DNA of 64,000 bases from Pedobacter polysacchareus (GTDB lineage Bacteria > Bacteroidota > Bacteroidia > Sphingobacteriales > Sphingobacteriaceae): assembly GCF_019802255.1 (NCBI RefSeq), contig NZ_JAHYSS010000004.1, forward strand, positions 62,001 to 126,000, in the 5' to 3' direction. The notes beneath the pieces were generated by a model. The model saw only the letters and a program-made list of their open reading frames with translations. It did no database searches and was not told the origin of the DNA. The stretch's first letter is position 1; every line of letters begins with the position of its first letter. Below are positions 1-9,016 of the stretch, piece after piece. A program made the translations under genes and the position numbers.

Positions 1-1503
1 TGCGATCAACCTGGTGGTGGTGGTTTTACCATTGGTACCGGTGACTGCAATAATTGGAATTCTGGTAGATTTTCCAGGAGGGTATAACATGTCAATCACA
101 GGAGCGGCAACGTTCCTTGGCAAGCCTTCGCTTGGGGCAAGGTGCATTCTGAATCCTGGCGCTGCATTGACTTCGAGTACTACACCTCCATTTTCGGTAA
201 GTGGCTGCGTTAAATTCTCTGCCATGATATCAATGCCGCAGATGTCCAACCCGATGACTCTGGAAATGCGTTCAGAGATGAATACATTTTGAGGGTGAAC
301 GAGGTCTGTTACGTCTATTGAAGTTCCACCTGTGCTCAGGTTGGCAGTAGATTTCAGGTATACGATTTCTCCTTGCGGAGGAACGGTATCCAGTGTATAT
401 TCTTTTTTAGCCAGTAAGTCCAGGGTATCCCGGTCTACACTGATTTCGGTCAGTACATTTTCATGTCCATAACCTCTTCTTGGATCAAGATTTTCTTTGT
501 CGATGAGCTCCTGGATACTCAGCTGACCGTTTCCAGTCACATGTGCAGGAACTCGCAATGCTGCGGCCACCATTTGATGGTCGATCACCAGAATTCTAAA
601 ATCGTAACCTGTGATGAACTTTTCAATAATGACTTTCTTCGAGTATTGCTGCGCATATTCAAATGCCGCTTTGGCAGCTTCATCAGTCTTTACGTTAATA
701 GTAGCACCTTTTCCATGGTTTCCATCTAATGGTTTGAACACCAATGGGTAGCCAACATTTTTGATGGCATCTTCCAGCTCTTCCGGATTCCAGATCGTTA
801 CCCCTTTTGCAACGGGAATCGCTGAATCCTGAAGTAAACGCTTGGTCTCGTCCTTATTACAGGCGATATCTACTGCAATAGAGTTTGTTCTTTCAGTCAT
901 GGTAGCGCGGAAACGGACTTGATTTTTTCCGTAACCCAATTGTACCAATGAGCTTTTATTTAACCTGATCCATGGAATGTCTCTTGAAATGGCTTCATCA
1001 ACGATAGAACCTGTACTTGGGCCTAAACGTTCCAGTTCCCTCAGTTCGCGCATCTTTTGGATGTCATGTTCCAGGTCGTAATCTGTGCCTGCAATTAATG
1101 CTTCCGCAATTCTCACGGCCGATTCTGCGGCATAAAGACCGGCTTTTTCTTCTAAATAGCTGAAAACAACATTGTAAATACCCTCAGTTTTGGTCTGGCG
1201 TGTTCTGCCAAATCCAGTGTCCATACCGGCAAGTGTCTGGATTTCTAAGGCAATATGTTCAATCACATGGCCCATCCAGGTGCCTTCTTCGATCCTCATG
1301 AGTAAGCCTCCGGGTTCGCCTTTGGAACAGCGATGTGTATATAATGTAGGGATTAATTTTTCGATTCGTTCTCCAAATCCTTCAATCAAATTGGTAGGAA
1401 ACTGTTCCATTTCCTCCAGGTCCAGTCGCATTTGAATTAATTTTTTTCTTTTGATAGACCATATATTTGGTCCGCGGAGCACCTGTATGCCTAATATTTT
1501 CAT
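1..1503 (-). CDS. cphA: Cyanophycin synthetase, C-terminal part missing at the window edge
   Basis: CphA polymerises aspartate and arginine into cyanophycin (multi-L-arginyl-poly-L-aspartate) using ATP. Translating the minus strand from the ATG at 1503 gives an open frame to base 1, about 500 residues of a family usually near 870-900. It starts MKILGIQVLRGPN, the typical family N-terminus. A region with ATP-grasp character follows (NVGYPLVFKPLDGNHGKGAT and VLEVNAAPGFRMHLAP). The frame leaves the window just inside the Mur-ligase-like domain, whose ATP loop GTNGKTTTT is visible at about bases 10-40. The missing part should hold the rest of that domain. It is divergent from cyanophycinase across a 270-bp gap. 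The product is expected to be cytoplasmic. The identification is firm; the completeness of the gene cannot be judged here. Confidence 0.95.
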   Translation of the reverse strand, partial: MKILGIQVLRGPNIWSIKRKKLIQMRLDLEEMEQFPTNLIEGFGERIEKLIPTLYTHRCSKGEPGGLLMRIEEGTWMGHVIEHIALEIQTLAGMDTGFGRTRQTKTEGIYNVVFSYLEEKAGLYAAESAVRIAEALIAGTDYDLEHDIQKMRELRELERLGPSTGSIVDEAISRDIPWIRLNKSSLVQLGYGKNQVRFRATMTERTNSIAVDIACNKDETKRLLQDSAIPVAKGVTIWNPEELEDAIKNVGYPLVFKPLDGNHGKGATINVKTDEAAKAAFEYAQQYSKKVIIEKFITGYDFRILVIDHQMVAAALRVPAHVTGNGQLSIQELIDKENLDPRRGYGHENVLTEISVDRDTLDLLAKKEYTLDTVPPQGEIVYLKSTANLSTGGTSIDVTDLVHPQNVFISERISRVIGLDICGIDIMAENLTQPLTENGGVVLEVNAAPGFRMHLAPSEGLPRNVAAPVIDMLYPPGKSTRIPIIAVTGTNGKTTTTRLIA

Positions 1504-1719
1504 TCTAGATTTGTTATTTTGTGTTGGTAGTGACCATATTACGGGGAAGTTATCAGTTTCTTGGATAAGGTCGAACGGAGAGATTAAAGTTAGGTTTTTT
1601 TCCGAAAATATTGCGATGAACCCAGTTAAATCTTGGGAATATATTTTGCATTCCATTACGGGCGGGTTATTGTGCTAAATCGAAATGTTGATAAGGTGTT
1701 AATATTGATAAATAATTCA

Positions 1720-1748
1720 TTGATATTGAGCATTACCCTATATATTTG
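1720..1748 (+). promoter_or_regulatory. Promoter of cyanophycinase
   Basis: The -7 box TATATTTG (1741-1748) fits the Bacteroidota consensus TAnnTTTG. A TTG at 1720-1722 lies 18 bases upstream, as expected for a -33 element. The -7 box ends 25 bases before the ATG at 1774. Confidence 0.5.
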
Positions 1749-1773
1749 AAATTTAGGAACGAAAAGATTTATA

Positions 1774-2649
1774 ATGACTCCGAAGGGTAAACTAATAATA
1801 ATAGGAGGTGCAATCAACACGGGAAGTTTCACAGAGACAACTTTTGGATTGCCCCAGAACATGAATTTCTTTGAAAGAGGAATTCTGAAGAAAATCACTA
1901 CGGAATCTATAAAAGGCACTACATCTCGTTTTGAAATCATGACTACCGCCTCTTTAATTCCAGAGCGGGTAGGAGAGGAATATATCAAAGCTTTTGCACA
2001 ATTGGACGTTCAGGATGTGGGTGTTTTAAACATCACCAGCAGAGAGCAGGCCAATTCAGAAGAGAACTGTGCGAGGATCAAAGCCGCTGATGTGATTGTT
2101 TTTACCGGTGGTGATCAATTGCGTTTGTCTTCTATTTTTGGCGGCACGGCCATCCATCAGATCTTGCTGGACAAGTATCAGGATGAAGCTGTGGTGATTG
2201 CAGGAACTTCTGCAGGTGCTGCGGCGAGCTCAAAAAACATGATTTATCAGGGCAGCAGTAAAGATGCCTTGCTGAAAGGCGAGGTTAAAATTACCGGCGG
2301 ACTTGGTTTTATCGATGGCGTGATTGTAGATACTCATTTTGTGCAGAGAGGAAGGATTGGCAGGTTATTATATGCAACAGCAAGTAGTCCCGGCATTCTG
2401 GGAATCGGCTTAGGAGAAGATACAGGACTGTTTATTTCCGGTGGAAATTTAATGGAAGCCATTGGATCCGGCATGGTCATTCTGGTAGATGGTAGAAATA
2501 TGACCGATACCAATCTGACAGATGTGGAAATGGGACAACCGGTTTCTATTAGCAATATGACGGTTCATGTGATGTGTGATGGTGATATTTATGACCTCCA
2601 TGATCATAAACTGACCATTCATCACCCCAAAGTGATCCCCGTAGATTAA
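1774..2649 (+). CDS. cphB: Cyanophycinase
   Basis: This is a peptidase of the S51 family that degrades cyanophycin to beta-Asp-Arg dipeptides. It has 291 residues, close to the usual 270-300. Family features are present: GGA near residues 11-13, TGGDQLRL at 111-118, the nucleophile elbow GTSAGA with Ser146, and DTHF with His188 followed by an arginine-rich QRGRIGR. There is no signal peptide, so it should act in the cytoplasm on the product of the divergent synthetase. The isoaspartyl peptidase begins 27 bases after its stop, so the two are probably co-transcribed. Recognition is strong because of both motifs and context. Confidence 0.95.
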   Translation: MTPKGKLIIIGGAINTGSFTETTFGLPQNMNFFERGILKKITTESIKGTTSRFEIMTTASLIPERVGEEYIKAFAQLDVQDVGVLNITSREQANSEENCARIKAADVIVFTGGDQLRLSSIFGGTAIHQILLDKYQDEAVVIAGTSAGAAASSKNMIYQGSSKDALLKGEVKITGGLGFIDGVIVDTHFVQRGRIGRLLYATASSPGILGIGLGEDTGLFISGGNLMEAIGSGMVILVDGRNMTDTNLTDVEMGQPVSISNMTVHVMCDGDIYDLHDHKLTIHHPKVIPVD

Positions 2650-2676
2650 CATTAATTCACAGCCCAAATTATTAGG

Positions 2677-3519
2677 ATGAAAATTATTATTCATGGTGGC
2701 TTTTTCAGTGAGTCTGGAACCAATCAGGAAACGAAAATAGCAAAGCAAGAGGCCCTTTCGGCGATTGTTAGTCAATCATACGCCTATTTAAACACGCATA
2801 CTGCATTAGAAACGGTAGTTTATGCGGTGAGCTTATTAGAGGACAACCCGCTTTTTAATGCCGGTCTGGGCTCGCAGATTCAAAGCGATGGACAGCTGCG
2901 GTTGAGTGCTGCTTTAATGGATGGCAAAAGCCAGAAATTCAGCGGGGTCATCAACATTCAAAATATTAAAAATCCAATACAGGTTTCTGAAAAGCTATTG
3001 GCTTACGACGATCGTGTATTGAGTGGGGAAGGCGCATTGAACTTTGCAAGAGCGCAAGGATTTGGTTTTTTCAATCCAGTCATCCCACAGCGGCAACTGG
3101 AATATGAGCAGAAACTGGCACAATCTTCCAGGTTAGGAACGGTTGGCTGTGTGGCTTTAGATGCCGATGGGAACCTGGCAGCAGCAACTTCCACAGGAGG
3201 AAAAGGATTTGAAATCCCTTGTCGCGTGAGTGATTCGGCTACAGTAGCAGGAAATTTTGCCAATGAATATGCAGGCATTTCCTGTACCGGTGTTGGAGAA
3301 GATATTGTCAGTGCAGCACTGGCAGCAAAGATCGTGACCCGTGTCACTGACGGCTTTACGTTAAAAAATGCCTGTGATAAATCTTTTGAAGAACTGAAAA
3401 CTTTTGATGGTTTTGCCGGGGTAATCGGTATTACTGCCTCAGGAGAAGTATACCATACCGACTCTCATGCCTATATGGTATGGGCAGCATTTGACGGTAG
3501 TTTACAGGTGTTTAACTAA
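2677..3519 (+). CDS. iaaA: Isoaspartyl peptidase / plant-type L-asparaginase
   Basis: This is an N-terminal nucleophile hydrolase that cleaves isoaspartyl dipeptides and, in many homologues, L-asparagine. It opens with IIIHGG, carries NAGLGS at 61-66, and has the self-processing site GTVG with catalytic Thr155, followed by a TSTGG substrate loop. Its 280 residues are slightly fewer than the approximately 310-320 of E. coli IaaA. It sits directly behind cyanophycinase, so the inferred substrate is beta-Asp-Arg, which would complete recycling of cyanophycin to free Asp and Arg. That substrate assignment rests on context; the fold assignment is firm. No signal peptide is visible. Confidence 0.92.
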   Translation: MKIIIHGGFFSESGTNQETKIAKQEALSAIVSQSYAYLNTHTALETVVYAVSLLEDNPLFNAGLGSQIQSDGQLRLSAALMDGKSQKFSGVINIQNIKNPIQVSEKLLAYDDRVLSGEGALNFARAQGFGFFNPVIPQRQLEYEQKLAQSSRLGTVGCVALDADGNLAAATSTGGKGFEIPCRVSDSATVAGNFANEYAGISCTGVGEDIVSAALAAKIVTRVTDGFTLKNACDKSFEELKTFDGFAGVIGITASGEVYHTDSHAYMVWAAFDGSLQVFN

Positions 3520-3539: not shown

Positions 3540-4220
3540 ATGAACAAACTTTGTTTAGTCGTTCTTTTCCTATTCTTTTCAGGAAAGGCAATGACACAAA
3601 CCAATACTTTTATTCCTCAAGAACCACCAGCCACGAGCGGAGCCATTAATATTGTCACCTCCAGTATGGAAGAGGCAGATGGCAATACCTATTTTGCGGA
3701 GGCCATGAAGAATGAAAGAAGAGGTGACCTGAATGATGCCCTGAATTTATACGCTAAAGCAGCATTCGAGTTCAATTCCTCCAAATTGTTTGTTCGCTAC
3801 GGAGAAGCATTGATGAAACTTGGAAATGTTCATTTGCTGATGAACCATTATAGTGAAGCAGAACAGGTGATCCTGAATGTGGCATTGAAAAATTATTCCA
3901 AAATTGGCAGTAAAGCCGGCCAGATGGAATCTTATTATCAATTGGGCAGAATTTATTTTGCCGCCAATAAACTGACCCAATCACTCTGGTTTTATACCCA
4001 GCAGGGGATTATCGCCAAACAGCTCAATAACAATAGCGCTTATGTCGAGTCTGTTGTCGGGATCGCTCAGGTGAAAATAAAGAAAAAAGAATATAACCTT
4101 GCTTTAAAGGATCTGAATAGGGCAGAACTGCTGTTGAAAACGGCAAACAATGCGCAGCTAAAAACTCGTATTAAGGAGACCAGAGCGCTAATCCCCTCAA
4201 AATTAGTCGCTAAGAAGTAA
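3540..4220 (+). CDS. Secreted TPR-repeat protein of unknown role
   Basis: The protein has 226 residues from the ATG at 3540. It starts with a signal peptide (MNKLCLVVLFLFFSGKAMTQ), so it is exported. The mature part is helical with TPR-like repeats: NDALNLYAKAAFEF, YSEAEQVILNVAL, and a last repeat around YNLALKDLNRAELL. Such repeats mediate protein-protein contacts. It starts 20 bases after the isoaspartyl peptidase stop and could belong to that operon, but TATCTTTA close to its start may be its own promoter. I do not recognise a specific family, and a role in cyanophycin metabolism is not supported by anything in the sequence. Confidence 0.75.
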   Translation: MNKLCLVVLFLFFSGKAMTQTNTFIPQEPPATSGAINIVTSSMEEADGNTYFAEAMKNERRGDLNDALNLYAKAAFEFNSSKLFVRYGEALMKLGNVHLLMNHYSEAEQVILNVALKNYSKIGSKAGQMESYYQLGRIYFAANKLTQSLWFYTQQGIIAKQLNNNSAYVESVVGIAQVKIKKKEYNLALKDLNRAELLLKTANNAQLKTRIKETRALIPSKLVAKK

Positions 4221-4265
4221 GTGCTCAAACCTAAAAATTATAGATTTTTGTATAAGTATTTTAAT

Positions 4266-4273
4266 TACTTTTG
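4266..4273 (+). promoter_or_regulatory. -7 promoter box upstream of the Prc-type protease
   Basis: TACTTTTG matches TAnnTTTG. The best -33 candidate (TTTG at 4247-4250) is only 15 bases upstream, shorter than usual, so support is partial. Confidence 0.35.
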
Positions 4274-4360
4274 ATAAGTTTACAGAAAAGAGACGGTAAT
4301 AATACTGTCTCTTTTCTGTTTATTCGTGATATTGGTATCATATTAGTTGTGGATTATAAA

Positions 4361-6550
4361 ATGGATTTTAAATTATTCAAAGAAATGTTAAAAAGAACAT
4401 TACTGGTCATCTTTACTGCTGCTGTATTGGCATGCCAAGCTTCCCCTAAGCCACAACCATTAGTGAAGGGTGTAAGCAATATTGTGCCTGACGAACGCCA
4501 GGCACTGGTAGTTAGAGAGGTTGTGGGCCTGATAGAAAACTATAATTACAAAAAAATAAAGCTGAATGATTCTATTTCTTCTTTGATTCTTGATAAATAT
4601 ATCAAGGACCTGGATCCATATAGATATTATTTCCTGGCATCCGACATTAAGGATTTTGAGCAATTCAGGTATGCATTAGATGATGATTTCAGAAACGGTG
4701 ACCTAAGCGCACCTTTTTACATCTTTAACGTTTATTTGAAAAGATACAATGAGTGGCTGAACTATACGCTCACTCAGGTAAAAGGTAAGTATGACTTCAA
4801 TGAGAATGATACTTATGTATTTGACCGCGAAAAAATGCCTTGGGAATCTACACAAACAGGTTTACAGGACATCTGGAAGAAAAAGGTGAAATACGACCTG
4901 GTGAACCTGAAAATTGCAGGTACGCCTCCAGCGAAAAATATAGAAACCCTGACTAAAAGATATGAAAACCTAAAGTCTCAGACCAATAAGGTGAACAATC
5001 AGGATGTGTTTCAACTGATCATGGATGCATTTACTGAAACCATCGATCCGCACACGAATTATTTTAATCCGGCAAATGCACAGCAGTTCAATGAAGATAT
5101 GGCCCGCTCTTTCGAGGGTATCGGTGCCAGACTGAAACTGGAAAATGACATCCTTAAAATTGATGAAGTGATTCCTGGAGGTCCTGCTTTCAAAAGTAAA
5201 CTGCTGAGTGCCGGCGATCGTATCGTTGGTGTTGCGCAGGGTGCTGGCGAATTTGAAGACATCATCGGATGGAGAATCGACAATTCAGTATCTAAAATTA
5301 AAGGCCCTAAAGGCACTAAAGTAAGACTGAAAATTATTCCTGCCGGACGCGAGCTTTCCTCTAAACCTGTCATTATTGAATTAATGAGGGAGCGTATTGT
5401 GATGGAAGACCAGTCGGCTAAGAAAACAGTAAAAACAATCCAGTCGGACGGTAAACCTTATAAAATTGGAATCATTAGAGTTCCTGCTTTCTATGCAGAC
5501 TTTAAAGCTGCCAATGCCGGTGATCCGAACTACAAAAGTACCACACGTGATGTGAGGCTATTGATTGATACGCTGAAAAATAAAGATAAAGTGGATGCGA
5601 TTGTGATGGACTTACGTGCCAATGGTGGTGGTTCATTAGTAGAGGCAATCGACTTAACCGGTCTGTTTATTGATAAAGGCCCGGTAGTACAAGTGAGGAA
5701 CACGAAAAATGAAATTGAAGTAAATGAAGATACCAATCCTGGTGTAGCCTGGGACGGCCCGCTAGGGGTGATGGTAGATCGTTTGAGCGCATCTGCTTCG
5801 GAAATTTTTGCTGGTGCAATCCAGGATTATGGAAGAGGAGTGATCATGGGTACGCAAACTTATGGTAAAGGTACTGTGCAGTCTTCGATCGACTTAAATA
5901 GGTTGGTAAATCCTTCTTTACTGCAAAGAATTGCAGCATTGGTAAATAAAGATGCTAAATTAATAACGACCACTACCAAAGATGGGGCTCCAATACAATT
6001 GGGACAAATCAACTTAACCATGGCAAAGTTTTACCGTGTGAATGGCAGTAGTACACAGCATAAAGGCGTAATGCCGGATATTCAGTTCCCTTCTCTTTAC
6101 CCAATGAATAAAATTGGAGAAGATACTGAGCCTTCAGCTTTGCCTTGGGATGAAGTGCCTAAATCTAACTTTAAAGCGGTAGCCGACCTAAGTCCGTTGA
6201 AACCGGAGCTGGTAAAACGTCATGAAGAGAGAATGGGGAAATCCTTAGATTATAAAACGCTGGAGCAAGACATTGCAGACATGAAAAAACGTGACGGAGA
6301 AATTTCTATCACTTTAAATGAAGCGAAACTTAAAGCCGAACGTGATAGCCTGGAAGCGAAATCCCTGGATAGAATCAATAAACTAAGAGCTTCAAAAGGC
6401 CTGCCTCCGGTTAAAAAAGGAGATAAGGTGAAGAAAGAAGAAAACTTTGATTTTATTGAAGATGAAAGTTTACAGATTATGACCGACTTGATCAAGCTGG
6501 CTGATCCTAAGAAATCAGAGCTGGTAAACAGAGGCACTGGTATTAACTAA
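4361..6550 (+). CDS. Carboxy-terminal processing protease (Prc/Tsp-like, S41), lipoprotein
   Basis: This is a periplasmic S41A serine protease of the long Prc/Tsp type. The order is: signal peptide with lipobox (TAAVLACQA), N-terminal Tsp-like helical domain containing YKKIKLNDSISSLILDKYIKDLDP, a PDZ domain (FEGIGARLKLENDILKIDEV), and the S41 catalytic domain. The serine is in SASASEIFAGAIQDYGR and the general-base lysine in TYGKGTVQSS. A C-terminal helical DUF3340-like region follows. About 729 residues is normal for Prc. Two starts are possible, ATG 4361 and ATG 4385; the second gives the tidier lipoprotein signal. Upstream in-frame sequence from 4271 has no good start. A strong terminator follows at 6570-6607. 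Confidence 0.93.
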   Translation: MDFKLFKEMLKRTLLVIFTAAVLACQASPKPQPLVKGVSNIVPDERQALVVREVVGLIENYNYKKIKLNDSISSLILDKYIKDLDPYRYYFLASDIKDFEQFRYALDDDFRNGDLSAPFYIFNVYLKRYNEWLNYTLTQVKGKYDFNENDTYVFDREKMPWESTQTGLQDIWKKKVKYDLVNLKIAGTPPAKNIETLTKRYENLKSQTNKVNNQDVFQLIMDAFTETIDPHTNYFNPANAQQFNEDMARSFEGIGARLKLENDILKIDEVIPGGPAFKSKLLSAGDRIVGVAQGAGEFEDIIGWRIDNSVSKIKGPKGTKVRLKIIPAGRELSSKPVIIELMRERIVMEDQSAKKTVKTIQSDGKPYKIGIIRVPAFYADFKAANAGDPNYKSTTRDVRLLIDTLKNKDKVDAIVMDLRANGGGSLVEAIDLTGLFIDKGPVVQVRNTKNEIEVNEDTNPGVAWDGPLGVMVDRLSASASEIFAGAIQDYGRGVIMGTQTYGKGTVQSSIDLNRLVNPSLLQRIAALVNKDAKLITTTTKDGAPIQLGQINLTMAKFYRVNGSSTQHKGVMPDIQFPSLYPMNKIGEDTEPSALPWDEVPKSNFKAVADLSPLKPELVKRHEERMGKSLDYKTLEQDIADMKKRDGEISITLNEAKLKAERDSLEAKSLDRINKLRASKGLPPVKKGDKVKKEENFDFIEDESLQIMTDLIKLADPKKSELVNRGTGIN

Positions 6551-6619: not shown

Positions 6620-7558
6620 TTAAAGGTTATCCTTTTTATCATCTACTCTTTTCTGGATTTGCATGGCCATCATTTCCTTCATGGTCTTGTTCATCCCTTC
6701 TGTAGAACCATCCAGAAAGACCACATTGCCCTCACTGTTTTCTGCAAAATGCTTGATGGATTCCGTCCACATGGTGAATAAGATGACAGAAATATCGAGG
6801 TTAGCCTCTTCCATTTCCTGAGCCGCTTTGGTCATCCCGTGTGCGACCTCCGCGCGGAATAAGGCGATCCCTTGTCCACGTAACTGGGCAGCTTCTCTTT
6901 CTGCCGCTGCGGCAATTTTAATGGCATTACCATCTGCCTCTGCACCCTTAGTTTTAGTGATCAATAAGGCCTGGCCTTCATTTTCTGCTGCCGCTTTTAA
7001 ATTGTTTGAAGCCACAACTCTACTCATCGAACGCATAATTTCTTCATCGAAAGTAATGTCATTCAACTGAAGATCCTGTAAATGGTAACCCCAGGTTTCC
7101 AATACCTGATCGATCTGGTGTTTTACATGGTCTACGATCTCATTTCGCTGCGCTAATACATTGGCTTGTCGCTGGGTGGCTACATAAGCCCTGATCGATC
7201 CTTCAATGGTTCTGATCAGTGCCTGCATCAGGTTCGTGGCATCCACAAACTTAAAAGCTACATTCTTGATGGTTTCTTCGTCGTGATTCAGGACAGAGTA
7301 CAGCAGCATGGCCTTAAAGTATACATTGGCCTGATCTTGTGTAACCGCCTGAAAAGAAAGTTCCACAGAACGGTTCTGGATCGAAATCCTGGAATGAATG
7401 TTTTCAAATAATGGGATTTTTAAGCTTAAACCCGGTCTTAATAACCTCCTGTATTTTCCAAAAATGGTGACTACAGCAATAGTTCCTTGTTTTACCGTCA
7501 CAAAAGAACTCATCAGAATAATTAGTGCAAGAACCACTATAATGTAAGTATAAATCAT
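6620..7558 (-). CDS. SPFH/band-7 family membrane protein (stomatin/prohibitin-like)
   Basis: One N-terminal membrane helix (MIYTYIIVVLALIILMSSFV) is followed by a band-7 domain typical of stomatins and prohibitins (VKQGTIAVVTIFGKYRRLLRPG, later RNEIVDHVKHQIDQVLETWG). An alanine- and glutamate-rich coiled coil (AAENEGQALL to AAAAEREAAQL) drives oligomerisation in this family. The length of 312 residues is typical. Members scaffold membrane microdomains and often modulate membrane proteases, but the specific partner cannot be told here. No NfeD-type partner lies next to it. It is monocistronic and ends at the bidirectional terminator. Confidence 0.9.
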   Translation of the reverse strand: MIYTYIIVVLALIILMSSFVTVKQGTIAVVTIFGKYRRLLRPGLSLKIPLFENIHSRISIQNRSVELSFQAVTQDQANVYFKAMLLYSVLNHDEETIKNVAFKFVDATNLMQALIRTIEGSIRAYVATQRQANVLAQRNEIVDHVKHQIDQVLETWGYHLQDLQLNDITFDEEIMRSMSRVVASNNLKAAAENEGQALLITKTKGAEADGNAIKIAAAAEREAAQLRGQGIALFRAEVAHGMTKAAQEMEEANLDISVILFTMWTESIKHFAENSEGNVVFLDGSTEGMNKTMKEMMAMQIQKRVDDKKDNL

Positions 7559-7856: not shown

Positions 7857-8963
7857 TTAGTTTTTACGACTGATTTTGCCCTTTTCAGAGAAGTCTAACT
7901 GGTGTCCTGGGAAATCAGTATCAGTTAGATTTTTTATTTTTTGAAATGCCCCATCCTGATCGTCCAGTTGCAGTCGGTTGATTTTATCTTGCTTTACCGA
8001 AATCACTTCCGCAGCAATAAAATCACCTTTGCCATTTAATTTGATCTGTAGAAGTGGTGCAATGCCATTTGGACCTTTCAAACTGAACATTCCGTACGTA
8101 CAGAAGTTCCCAAGGCTATAAGCGATAAATTTATCTTTATACAATTCTACAGCTCTCGTCACATGCGGACCATGGCCTAATACAATATCAGCGCCGGCAT
8201 CAATTACACCATGGGCGAACTGATAGACGTTGCCACGGTTTTCCTGGTAAAAGATTTCATTTTTTTTAGGAACATGCTCAAATTTTGCGCCCTCACCTCC
8301 ACCATGGAAAGAAACAACCACAATGTCTACTTGCTGTTTTAAGCGGGATACCAGTTCTTTTGCTGCAGGGAGGTTATTGATAGAAACGGTGTTTTCATTA
8401 GGTGCAAAGGCACAGATCGCATATTTTACACTGTCTATTTCGAAAATCTGAAAAGGCTTCGATTGTAAACCTGCATAGTTAATTTGCAAAGAATCTAATA
8501 TTGCCATGGTCCGTTTCCTGCCTGTGCTGCCAAAATCACCCACATGGTTGTTGGCAATACTCATGACATTAAATCCGGCATCTTTAATAATTCCGGCATA
8601 TCGCTCCGGCATTCTGAAGGCAAAACAGCTGTTGCCTATTGTATCTTTACACTTGGTAGATTTACCATTGTTCAGGAAACAGCCTTCCAGGTTCCCAAAA
8701 ACCAGGTCTCCTTTTAAATAGGGTACTACTGCCTGGAAACTATTCAGGGCATCATCTGCAGGAAGGTTTGCTTTAGTTGGATAGGCAGAGCCTAACATGA
8801 TATCGCCAACTGCGGTAATATTAATGGTGTCTTTTATCGGTTTTTTAGGGATGGTGTCTGTTTGGACAAGTTGGACAGTCGGTACACTTGCGCGATTTCC
8901 TTCACAGCTGAACAGCAATAAGGCAGATAAAAAGAATAAGGCGAGCGCGTTTAATGATTTCAT
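7857..8963 (-). CDS. CapA-family metallophosphatase-like lipoprotein
   Basis: This is a PGA_cap/CapA-type protein with a calcineurin-like metallophosphatase fold. Characteristic motifs are present: AVGDIMLG, GNLEG, ANNHVGDFG, SFHGGGEG and GHGPHV. The N-terminus is a lipoprotein signal (ALFFLSALLLFSCEGN), placing it at the cell envelope. Family members act in poly-gamma-glutamate capsule synthesis or related envelope steps, but no capsule genes (CapB/CapC) are adjacent, so the substrate is unknown. I prefer the ATG at 8963 (368 residues). An in-frame ATG at 8984 lies directly at the end of a terminator T-run and is less likely. Confidence 0.85.
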   Translation of the reverse strand: MKSLNALALFFLSALLLFSCEGNRASVPTVQLVQTDTIPKKPIKDTINITAVGDIMLGSAYPTKANLPADDALNSFQAVVPYLKGDLVFGNLEGCFLNNGKSTKCKDTIGNSCFAFRMPERYAGIIKDAGFNVMSIANNHVGDFGSTGRKRTMAILDSLQINYAGLQSKPFQIFEIDSVKYAICAFAPNENTVSINNLPAAKELVSRLKQQVDIVVVSFHGGGEGAKFEHVPKKNEIFYQENRGNVYQFAHGVIDAGADIVLGHGPHVTRAVELYKDKFIAYSLGNFCTYGMFSLKGPNGIAPLLQIKLNGKGDFIAAEVISVKQDKINRLQLDDQDGAFQKIKNLTDTDFPGHQLDFSEKGKISRKN

Positions 8964-8983
8964 GGGTAGCTGGTATTTTTTCA

Positions 8984-9016
8984 TAAAAAAAGTCCTCCCA
9001 GTAAAATAGGAGGACT
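8984..9016 (-). terminator. Terminator or attenuator between NlpC/P60 and CapA genes
   Basis: On the minus strand an 8-bp perfect stem (arms 9009-9016 and 8991-8998, core AGTCCTCC) has a 10-base loop and runs into seven T residues (8990-8984), 24 bases after the upstream stop codon. The downstream CapA start lies about 20 bases further on. Confidence 0.8.

Follow-up and report, generated by a model that had tools for sequence, protein, structure and literature searches.

The 64,000-nucleotide stretch of the Pedobacter polysacchareus genome analysed here, called the window (G000:C14:62001-126000 in genome coordinates), begins with a cyanophycin cluster, in which a cyanophycin synthetase gene (cphA) diverges from a cyanophycinase gene (cphB) and the latter is followed by a gene of the isoaspartyl peptidase (iaaA) type. 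The cluster type is known and ordinary for the phylum. The new part is the third gene, which represents a divergent branch of IaaA proteins tied to cyanophycin genes, referred to below as the compact branch. The features of the locus are as follows (window coordinates unless a contig is named).

1..1503, minus strand: N-terminal part of cphA1, cyanophycin synthetase; the window starts inside the gene
G000:C14:60888-63503: whole cphA1 gene, 871 amino acids (aa) from the ATG that agrees with the starts of known CphA proteins
1504..1773, no strand: divergent cphA-cphB intergenic region, 270 bp
1741..1748, plus strand: TATATTTG, promoter-like motif ahead of cphB-iaaA
1774..2649, plus strand: cphB, cyanophycinase, 291 aa, divergent from cphA
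2677..3519, plus strand: compact iaaA-type gene, 280 aa, 27 bases after the cphB stop, predicted N-terminal nucleophile (Ntn) isoaspartyl dipeptidase for beta-Asp-Arg
3139..3141, plus strand: Thr155 codon, predicted autocleavage site and nucleophile (T179 in E. coli IaaA, EcIaaA), placed by alignment
3202..3213, plus strand: codons of the K176-G-F-E179 loop, which takes the place of MTNK in E. coli-type IaaA

The peptidase belongs to the Asparaginase_2 family (PF01112; 258.9 bits, cut-off 27) and matches EcIaaA (PDB 2zak) at E 4.4e-40, with 38% identity across 269 columns. To this extent the label of isoaspartyl peptidase given in a preliminary description of the sequence stands; it needs qualifying in that the protein is not a typical IaaA and falls in the divergent, cyanophycin-linked branch. 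Its score against the E. coli equivalog model NF007589 (139 bits) lies below the curated cut-off of 567, and it is therefore not filed as an E. coli-type equivalog. A search with TIGR01975, the model for the zinc isoaspartyl dipeptidase IadA, gave no match to the window peptidase at E 0.001. The catalytic and Asp-binding residues listed for EcIaaA (PMC10206079) are kept in 7 of 7 cases, with T155, T173, R183, D186, S187, T204 and G205 corresponding to T179, T197, R207, D210, S211, T230 and G231. The same seven are present in all 56 compact rows of the alignment (53 distinct), and also in genomes G111, G151, G155 and G165. The modelled fold, the predicted autocleavage threonine and these residues are common to the window peptidase, E. 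coli IaaA/EcAIII and the Roseivivax enzyme RhIaaA. The differences from EcIaaA lie in a shorter linker before the threonine, a separate branch in the tree and 42 marker positions, each with one residue in at least 97% of the 56 compact rows and in less than 15% of the 58 other rows compared. Among these switched positions is the gate loop, where M200-T-N-K203 becomes K-G-F-E. M200 (EcIaaA numbering) has been described as an active-site gate that varies in nature, Lys included, and the natural Lys200 variants have predicted structures with added acidic partners (PMC10204187), which fits K176 and E179 of the compact branch.

The separation of the branch is also seen in a peptidase tree, in which 12 compact rows occupy one side of a branch with a Shimodaira-Hasegawa-like approximate likelihood ratio test (SH-aLRT) value of 100, opposite 56 other family rows, EcIaaA and human ASRGL1, so that the window peptidase does not group with EcIaaA. 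The branch joining the compact rows has a length of about 3.6 changes per site, divided by the midpoint root into 2.64 and 0.92, in a tree that was built by a quick method and carries the tool's warning that long branches meet. Rows of E. coli-type IaaA linked to cphB are intermixed with unlinked ones.

Conserved synteny in related genomes, raised in the preliminary description as something to look for, is extensive. Among the best 80 of at least 571 relatives, compared as named loci, 79 repeat the window's three genes and their layout, and the arrangement is therefore not due to chance; in the 80th, cphB and the peptidase gene lie on a contig of 3.6 kb that stops short of cphA. The spacing between cphB and iaaA ranges from -4 to 171 bp across the 80 loci and does not exceed 6 bp in 30 of them, and the gate loop sequence TSTGGKGFEIP occurs in 79, with TSTGGKGYEIP in the remaining one. 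The closest named relatives of the peptidase are from Pedobacter, with up to 96% identity among the matches listed, from which the window's own records may be absent. Searched with the window peptidase, 58 of 151 genomes of the family contain the compact gene (matches of at least 386 bits, next best 117), as do 20 of 296 genomes in a sample of the phylum (at least 424 bits, next best 167). In 54 of the 58 family genomes the gene is codirectional with cphB and lies within 5 kb behind it; three of the other four sit on other contigs of draft genomes. A cphB match of at least 210 bits, a line picked after the scores had been seen, accompanies the compact gene in 57 of the 58 genomes and is found in none of the 93 without it, in counts that are uncorrected for relatedness. 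The 58th genome, G027, has its cphB in two pieces (G027:C123:33458-34265, named in the same style as the window), followed by an open compact gene; the split may reflect a broken cyanophycinase or a sequencing error.

In a sample of 395 Bacteroidia genomes, 156 have a CphA over its cut-off, and at E 1e-150 a match is seen in 80 of 196 genera. These figures rule out that CphA is rare in the phylum and suggest that the capacity for cyanophycin synthesis is common in Bacteroidia; the hint of rarity in the preliminary description was mistaken, as the clusters are widespread in Bacteroidota and largely published (PMC10206079). Gene neighbours were surveyed in six-frame open reading frames (ORFs) at 60 of the 156 CphA loci (59 genera), hand-picked away from contig ends where possible and from outside the window's family, which with the window locus makes 61. 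The compact peptidase follows cphB in 12 of them. An E. coli-type IaaA (301-334 aa) lies within 5 kb of cphB in 16; 15 of these genes are convergent to cphB, and that of L129 is codirectional. A further 18 have cphB with no IaaA-family gene within 5 kb, including L080, where IaaA is about 6 kb off, and L109, where the contig ends behind cphB; the last 15 have neither gene nearby, and the contig of L078 is cut just upstream of cphA. On a rough estimate with an assumed genome size, the 28 IaaA genes seen beside 46 cphB genes compare with about 0.2 expected by chance. In every one of the 33 genomes with no linked gene, a match to the IaaA family is present elsewhere, at 108 bits or more in 30 (two of these, L228 and L240, have a secreted look as judged by eye) and at only 75-88 bits in three, so each of the 61 CphA genomes holds a candidate of this family, a weak one in three cases. 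IadA was rejected as the missing enzyme where IaaA is unlinked, as it exceeds its cut-off in 1 of the 33 genomes searched (33 of the 61). The loci with no cphB near cphA are likewise not to be read as lacking the gene, since a cyanophycinase over the cut-off is present in 15 of 15 such genomes. Clustering of ORFs of at least 70 aa (BLASTP E 1e-10, half-length overlap) returned no other conserved third gene, that is, no cluster in more than 6 of the 61 loci besides cphA, cphB and the IaaA family.

A tree of CphA places the 12 compact loci within one clade of 16 (SH-aLRT 100); of its four other loci, two carry an E. coli-type IaaA and two carry neither type. This confinement fits a single association followed by swaps or losses, the direction of which is not given by the tree. 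At loci L105 and L115 the CphA belongs to the compact-type clade, but the IaaA gene that converges on cphB is of the E. coli type, a possible gene replacement.

The two partner genes are intact. The preliminary description had left room for a truncated or frameshifted CphA beyond the window edge and for catalytic loss in the hydrolases; neither defect is found, the latter at the sites tested. The cphA gene runs past the left edge, and in the genome its complete ORF (G000:C14:60888-63656) has no internal stop; the mechanical ORF begins upstream of the ATG, at 1656 rather than 1503. The whole-gene product of 871 aa scores 1251.8 bits against TIGR02068 (cut-off 850), covering positions 1-859 of 862, with the N, G and M domains all present at full length, and its top PDB match is 7lg5, a cyanophycin synthase (E 2.5e-292). 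The N-domain primer site Cx19HxxEH is kept as C59-x19-H79-xx-E82-H83, at the published numbers; by alignment to the PDB sequence, equated with SuCphA1 because its site letters sit at the published numbers, H263 of the G domain corresponds to H267 and D579 H580 of the M domain to D585 H586. These sites are those described for SuCphA1, which is inactivated by changes at H267 and at D585-H586 (PMC9262961). With the N-domain motif and the G- and M-domain residues kept, primer-independent cyanophycin synthesis is predicted.

CphB scores 219.2 bits against TIGR02069 (cut-off 126.6) and matches PDB entries 7uqv (E 3.4e-54) and 3en0 (E 4.9e-35). Its GTSAGAA motif (S146) and its D186-x-H188-F stretch are invariant across 14 aligned rows, and we take the serine motif and the D-x-H-F stretch to be the catalytic residues of cyanophycinase (S51). 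Upstream, the cphA-cphB intergenic region spans 104-588 bp over 79 regions, made up of the window and 78 loci, after 2 of the 80 without a cphA-cphB interval of 60-600 bp had been left out. The sequence TAnnTTTG, presumably a promoter-like motif of the Bacteroidota -7 type, is present in 77 of the 79 regions at no more than 80 bp from the cphB start, against a mean of 6.75 of 79 in plain letter shuffles, the genomes being mostly close relatives. It would serve cphB and iaaA as a co-transcribed pair.

Taken together, the three genes very probably form a complete module for cyanophycin storage and recall, and the make, cut and split cycle of nitrogen storage suggested in the preliminary description is retained as the best reading of the sequence. 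CphA would synthesize the polymer and CphB would cut it into beta-Asp-Arg. The compact Ntn hydrolase would cleave itself at Gly154-Thr155 and then split the dipeptide into Asp and Arg, so that the divergent cphB-iaaA pair would undo the synthesis carried out by CphA. One residue counts against this reading of the synthetase: F67, conserved near the N site, is replaced by Leu in the window protein.

The compact gene is also present in three genomes of another class (family f12), namely G151 (L248), G155 (L249-L250) and G165 (L251), and a search for CphA at E 1e-50 found it in 0 of the 3. In all three the gene lies near a DcuC-family carrier (YfcC-like in G155) and an RpiR-type regulator, and each genome has a cyanophycinase homologue over the cut-off, which adjoins the compact gene in G151 (159 bits), shares its contig at a distance of about 17 kb in G155 (166 bits) and is on another contig in G165. 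The KGFE loop and the seven residues are retained in the f12 peptidases, which also agree with the compact branch at 38-40 of the 42 marker positions. These are probably cyanophycin-scavenging loci, and this context ties the branch to cyanophycin where no CphA was found. G151 and G155 each encode in addition a larger protein that combines an S51 domain, weak in the case of G151, with a type IX secretion system (T9SS) sorting tail, and the G155 locus holds an enolase-superfamily protein and an M14 peptidase.

These observations tip the balance slightly towards a dipeptidase dedicated to cyanophycin over a general protein-damage enzyme. Several others weigh against such a dedicated role, in addition to the reservations attached above to the 210-bit line, the relatedness of the genomes and the tree. 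At the curated cut-off of 126.6 bits a cyanophycinase is found in 74 of the 151 family genomes, among which 17 have no compact gene. If its contig is circular, G111 has the compact gene at a distance of about 0.6 Mb from cphA-cphB (L247, L254), and 49 of the 61 surveyed CphA loci do without it, so that it is not required. The AlphaFold model of the peptidase has a mean predicted local distance difference test (pLDDT) score of 61.4 and a predicted template modelling (pTM) score of 0.66; its best PDB match, for this low-confidence model, is precursor EcAIII (2zak_A; E 1.4e-18, template modelling score 0.78), and since residues 175-214 fall below 50 the pocket cannot be judged from it. A structure-based reading of the pocket was accordingly dropped.

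The strongest alternative accepts the pathway and disputes only the dedicated role: the peptidase would be an ordinary promiscuous isoaspartyl peptidase that also clears damaged protein and sits in the cluster as a mere convenience, like RhIaaA. This enzyme, from Roseivivax and the only characterised IaaA from a cyanophycin cluster, is promiscuous, and no preference for beta-Asp-Arg is reported for either RhIaaA or LmIadA, the latter also from a cyanophycin cluster (PMC10206079). For this reason the specificity of the compact branch is put forward here as a hypothesis. The retention of the Asp-binding residues agrees with promiscuity, as does the fact that in genomes such as G006, G011, G020 and G023 the compact protein is the sole query match at E 0.001. 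However, a general enzyme would not be expected to co-occur with high-scoring cphB, to form a long separate branch, to have switched 42 positions including the gate loop, or to appear among scavenging-type genes in genomes without CphA, and on this evidence we regard general promiscuity as rather unlikely.

It is less probable still that the remodelled pocket serves another activity, for example mainly that of an L-asparaginase or on an amide of another kind, and that a different enzyme splits beta-Asp-Arg. The variation of gate position 200 in nature, Lys included (PMC10204187), would allow for this, and the window genome has four further, weaker query matches, some perhaps pieces of one gene, but both the linkage to cphB in storage loci and the scavenging-type context without CphA point to the cyanophycin dipeptide. 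A decayed or silent cluster, with which the occurrence of the tested promoter-like motif within 120 bp on the cphA side in just 1 of the 79 regions would agree, is hardly credible in the face of three intact frames, kept catalytic residues at the sites tested, a conserved motif before cphB and the same layout at 79 of the 80 related loci.

A broader proposal, which we hold tentatively and at somewhat less than an even chance, is that the compact branch is an undescribed Ntn subfamily dedicated to cyanophycin and specific for beta-Asp-Arg through a charge-swapped gate loop, in which K176 would face the carboxylate and E179 or another acid the guanidinium group of the dipeptide. The subfamily would serve storage and scavenging loci alike and, with the cphB-linked E. 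coli-type IaaA, would constitute the undiscovered isoaspartyl dipeptidase of Bacteroidota. According to the 2023 survey, the isoaspartyl dipeptidases of both Firmicutes and Bacteroidota "remain undiscovered"; of the 86 Bacteroidota genomes in which it found CphA1, all had a cyanophycinase and 22.1% had IadA and/or IaaA (PMC10206079). The present 61 of 61 for the IaaA family differs from that figure in sampling and thresholds, and stands for homology, not activity. The compact branch and the E. coli-type IaaA beside cphB are ready candidates for the missing enzyme, and concrete, assayable genes are hereby named for the published gap (PMC10206079).

Among the titles and abstracts listed from the open-access literature searched, none dealt with the compact branch. 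The cluster type itself is documented: all three genes are clustered in 49 of the 153 genomes that have them (Sharon and Schmeing 2023, PMC10206079), the same three genes are reported from one strain in a Dyadobacter description (PMC11573002), and a CphA is on record for Flavobacterium psychrophilum (PMC9723704). The published cphA1-cyanophycinase-iaaA clusters share with the window the same three activities, predicted in the latter, within 5 kb, and differ in the third gene, which in the window is of the compact branch with its remodelled gate loop (PMC10206079). In the Methods of the survey, the IadA and IaaA query lists look swapped, with the Roseivivax IaaA under IadA and the Leucothrix IadA under IaaA, and the Pedobacter mendelii query WP_188415469.1 may therefore be an IaaA (PMC10206079). 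As P. mendelii CCM 8939 (L187) has the compact peptidase gene, the authors of the survey may have had it in hand.

Two other known systems resemble the proposed role. The cyanophycin dipeptide hydrolases of M14/AstE type (PNAS 2023, via PMC10206079) carry out the same reaction as proposed here, with the specificity hypothesised here; they are annotated as M14 metallopeptidases, whereas the compact branch is of predicted Ntn hydrolase type, and they are reported to account for alpha- and gamma-proteobacteria and not for Bacteroidota (PMC10206079). If the hypothesis is true, the compact enzyme would be their Ntn counterpart. The cyanophycin utilization locus (Ben Hania et al., via PMC10206079) combines cyanophycinase, dipeptidase and transporter as the f12 loci do; it was described with iadA, in contrast to the compact iaaA of f12, and the survey adds that the observation holds for iaaA too (PMC10206079).

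Some arrangements at other loci differ from that of the window. The pair of cphB and IaaA in G468 is convergent and lies away from cphA. L129 (G706) has a divergent CphA, with the longest branch of the tree, and two cphB and two IaaA genes, all codirectional. In the window, a TPR-repeat gene begins 20 bases past the peptidase stop and is followed by a tail-specific S41 protease gene (3540-6550); the two are possibly read through from the cphB promoter. The same order, a TPR-like gene and then one for a tail-specific S41 protease, is found behind the compact gene of G111. Further downstream in the window lie genes for a Band_7/SPFH protein (6620-7558) and for a PGA_cap protein of the capsule synthesis type (7857-8984).

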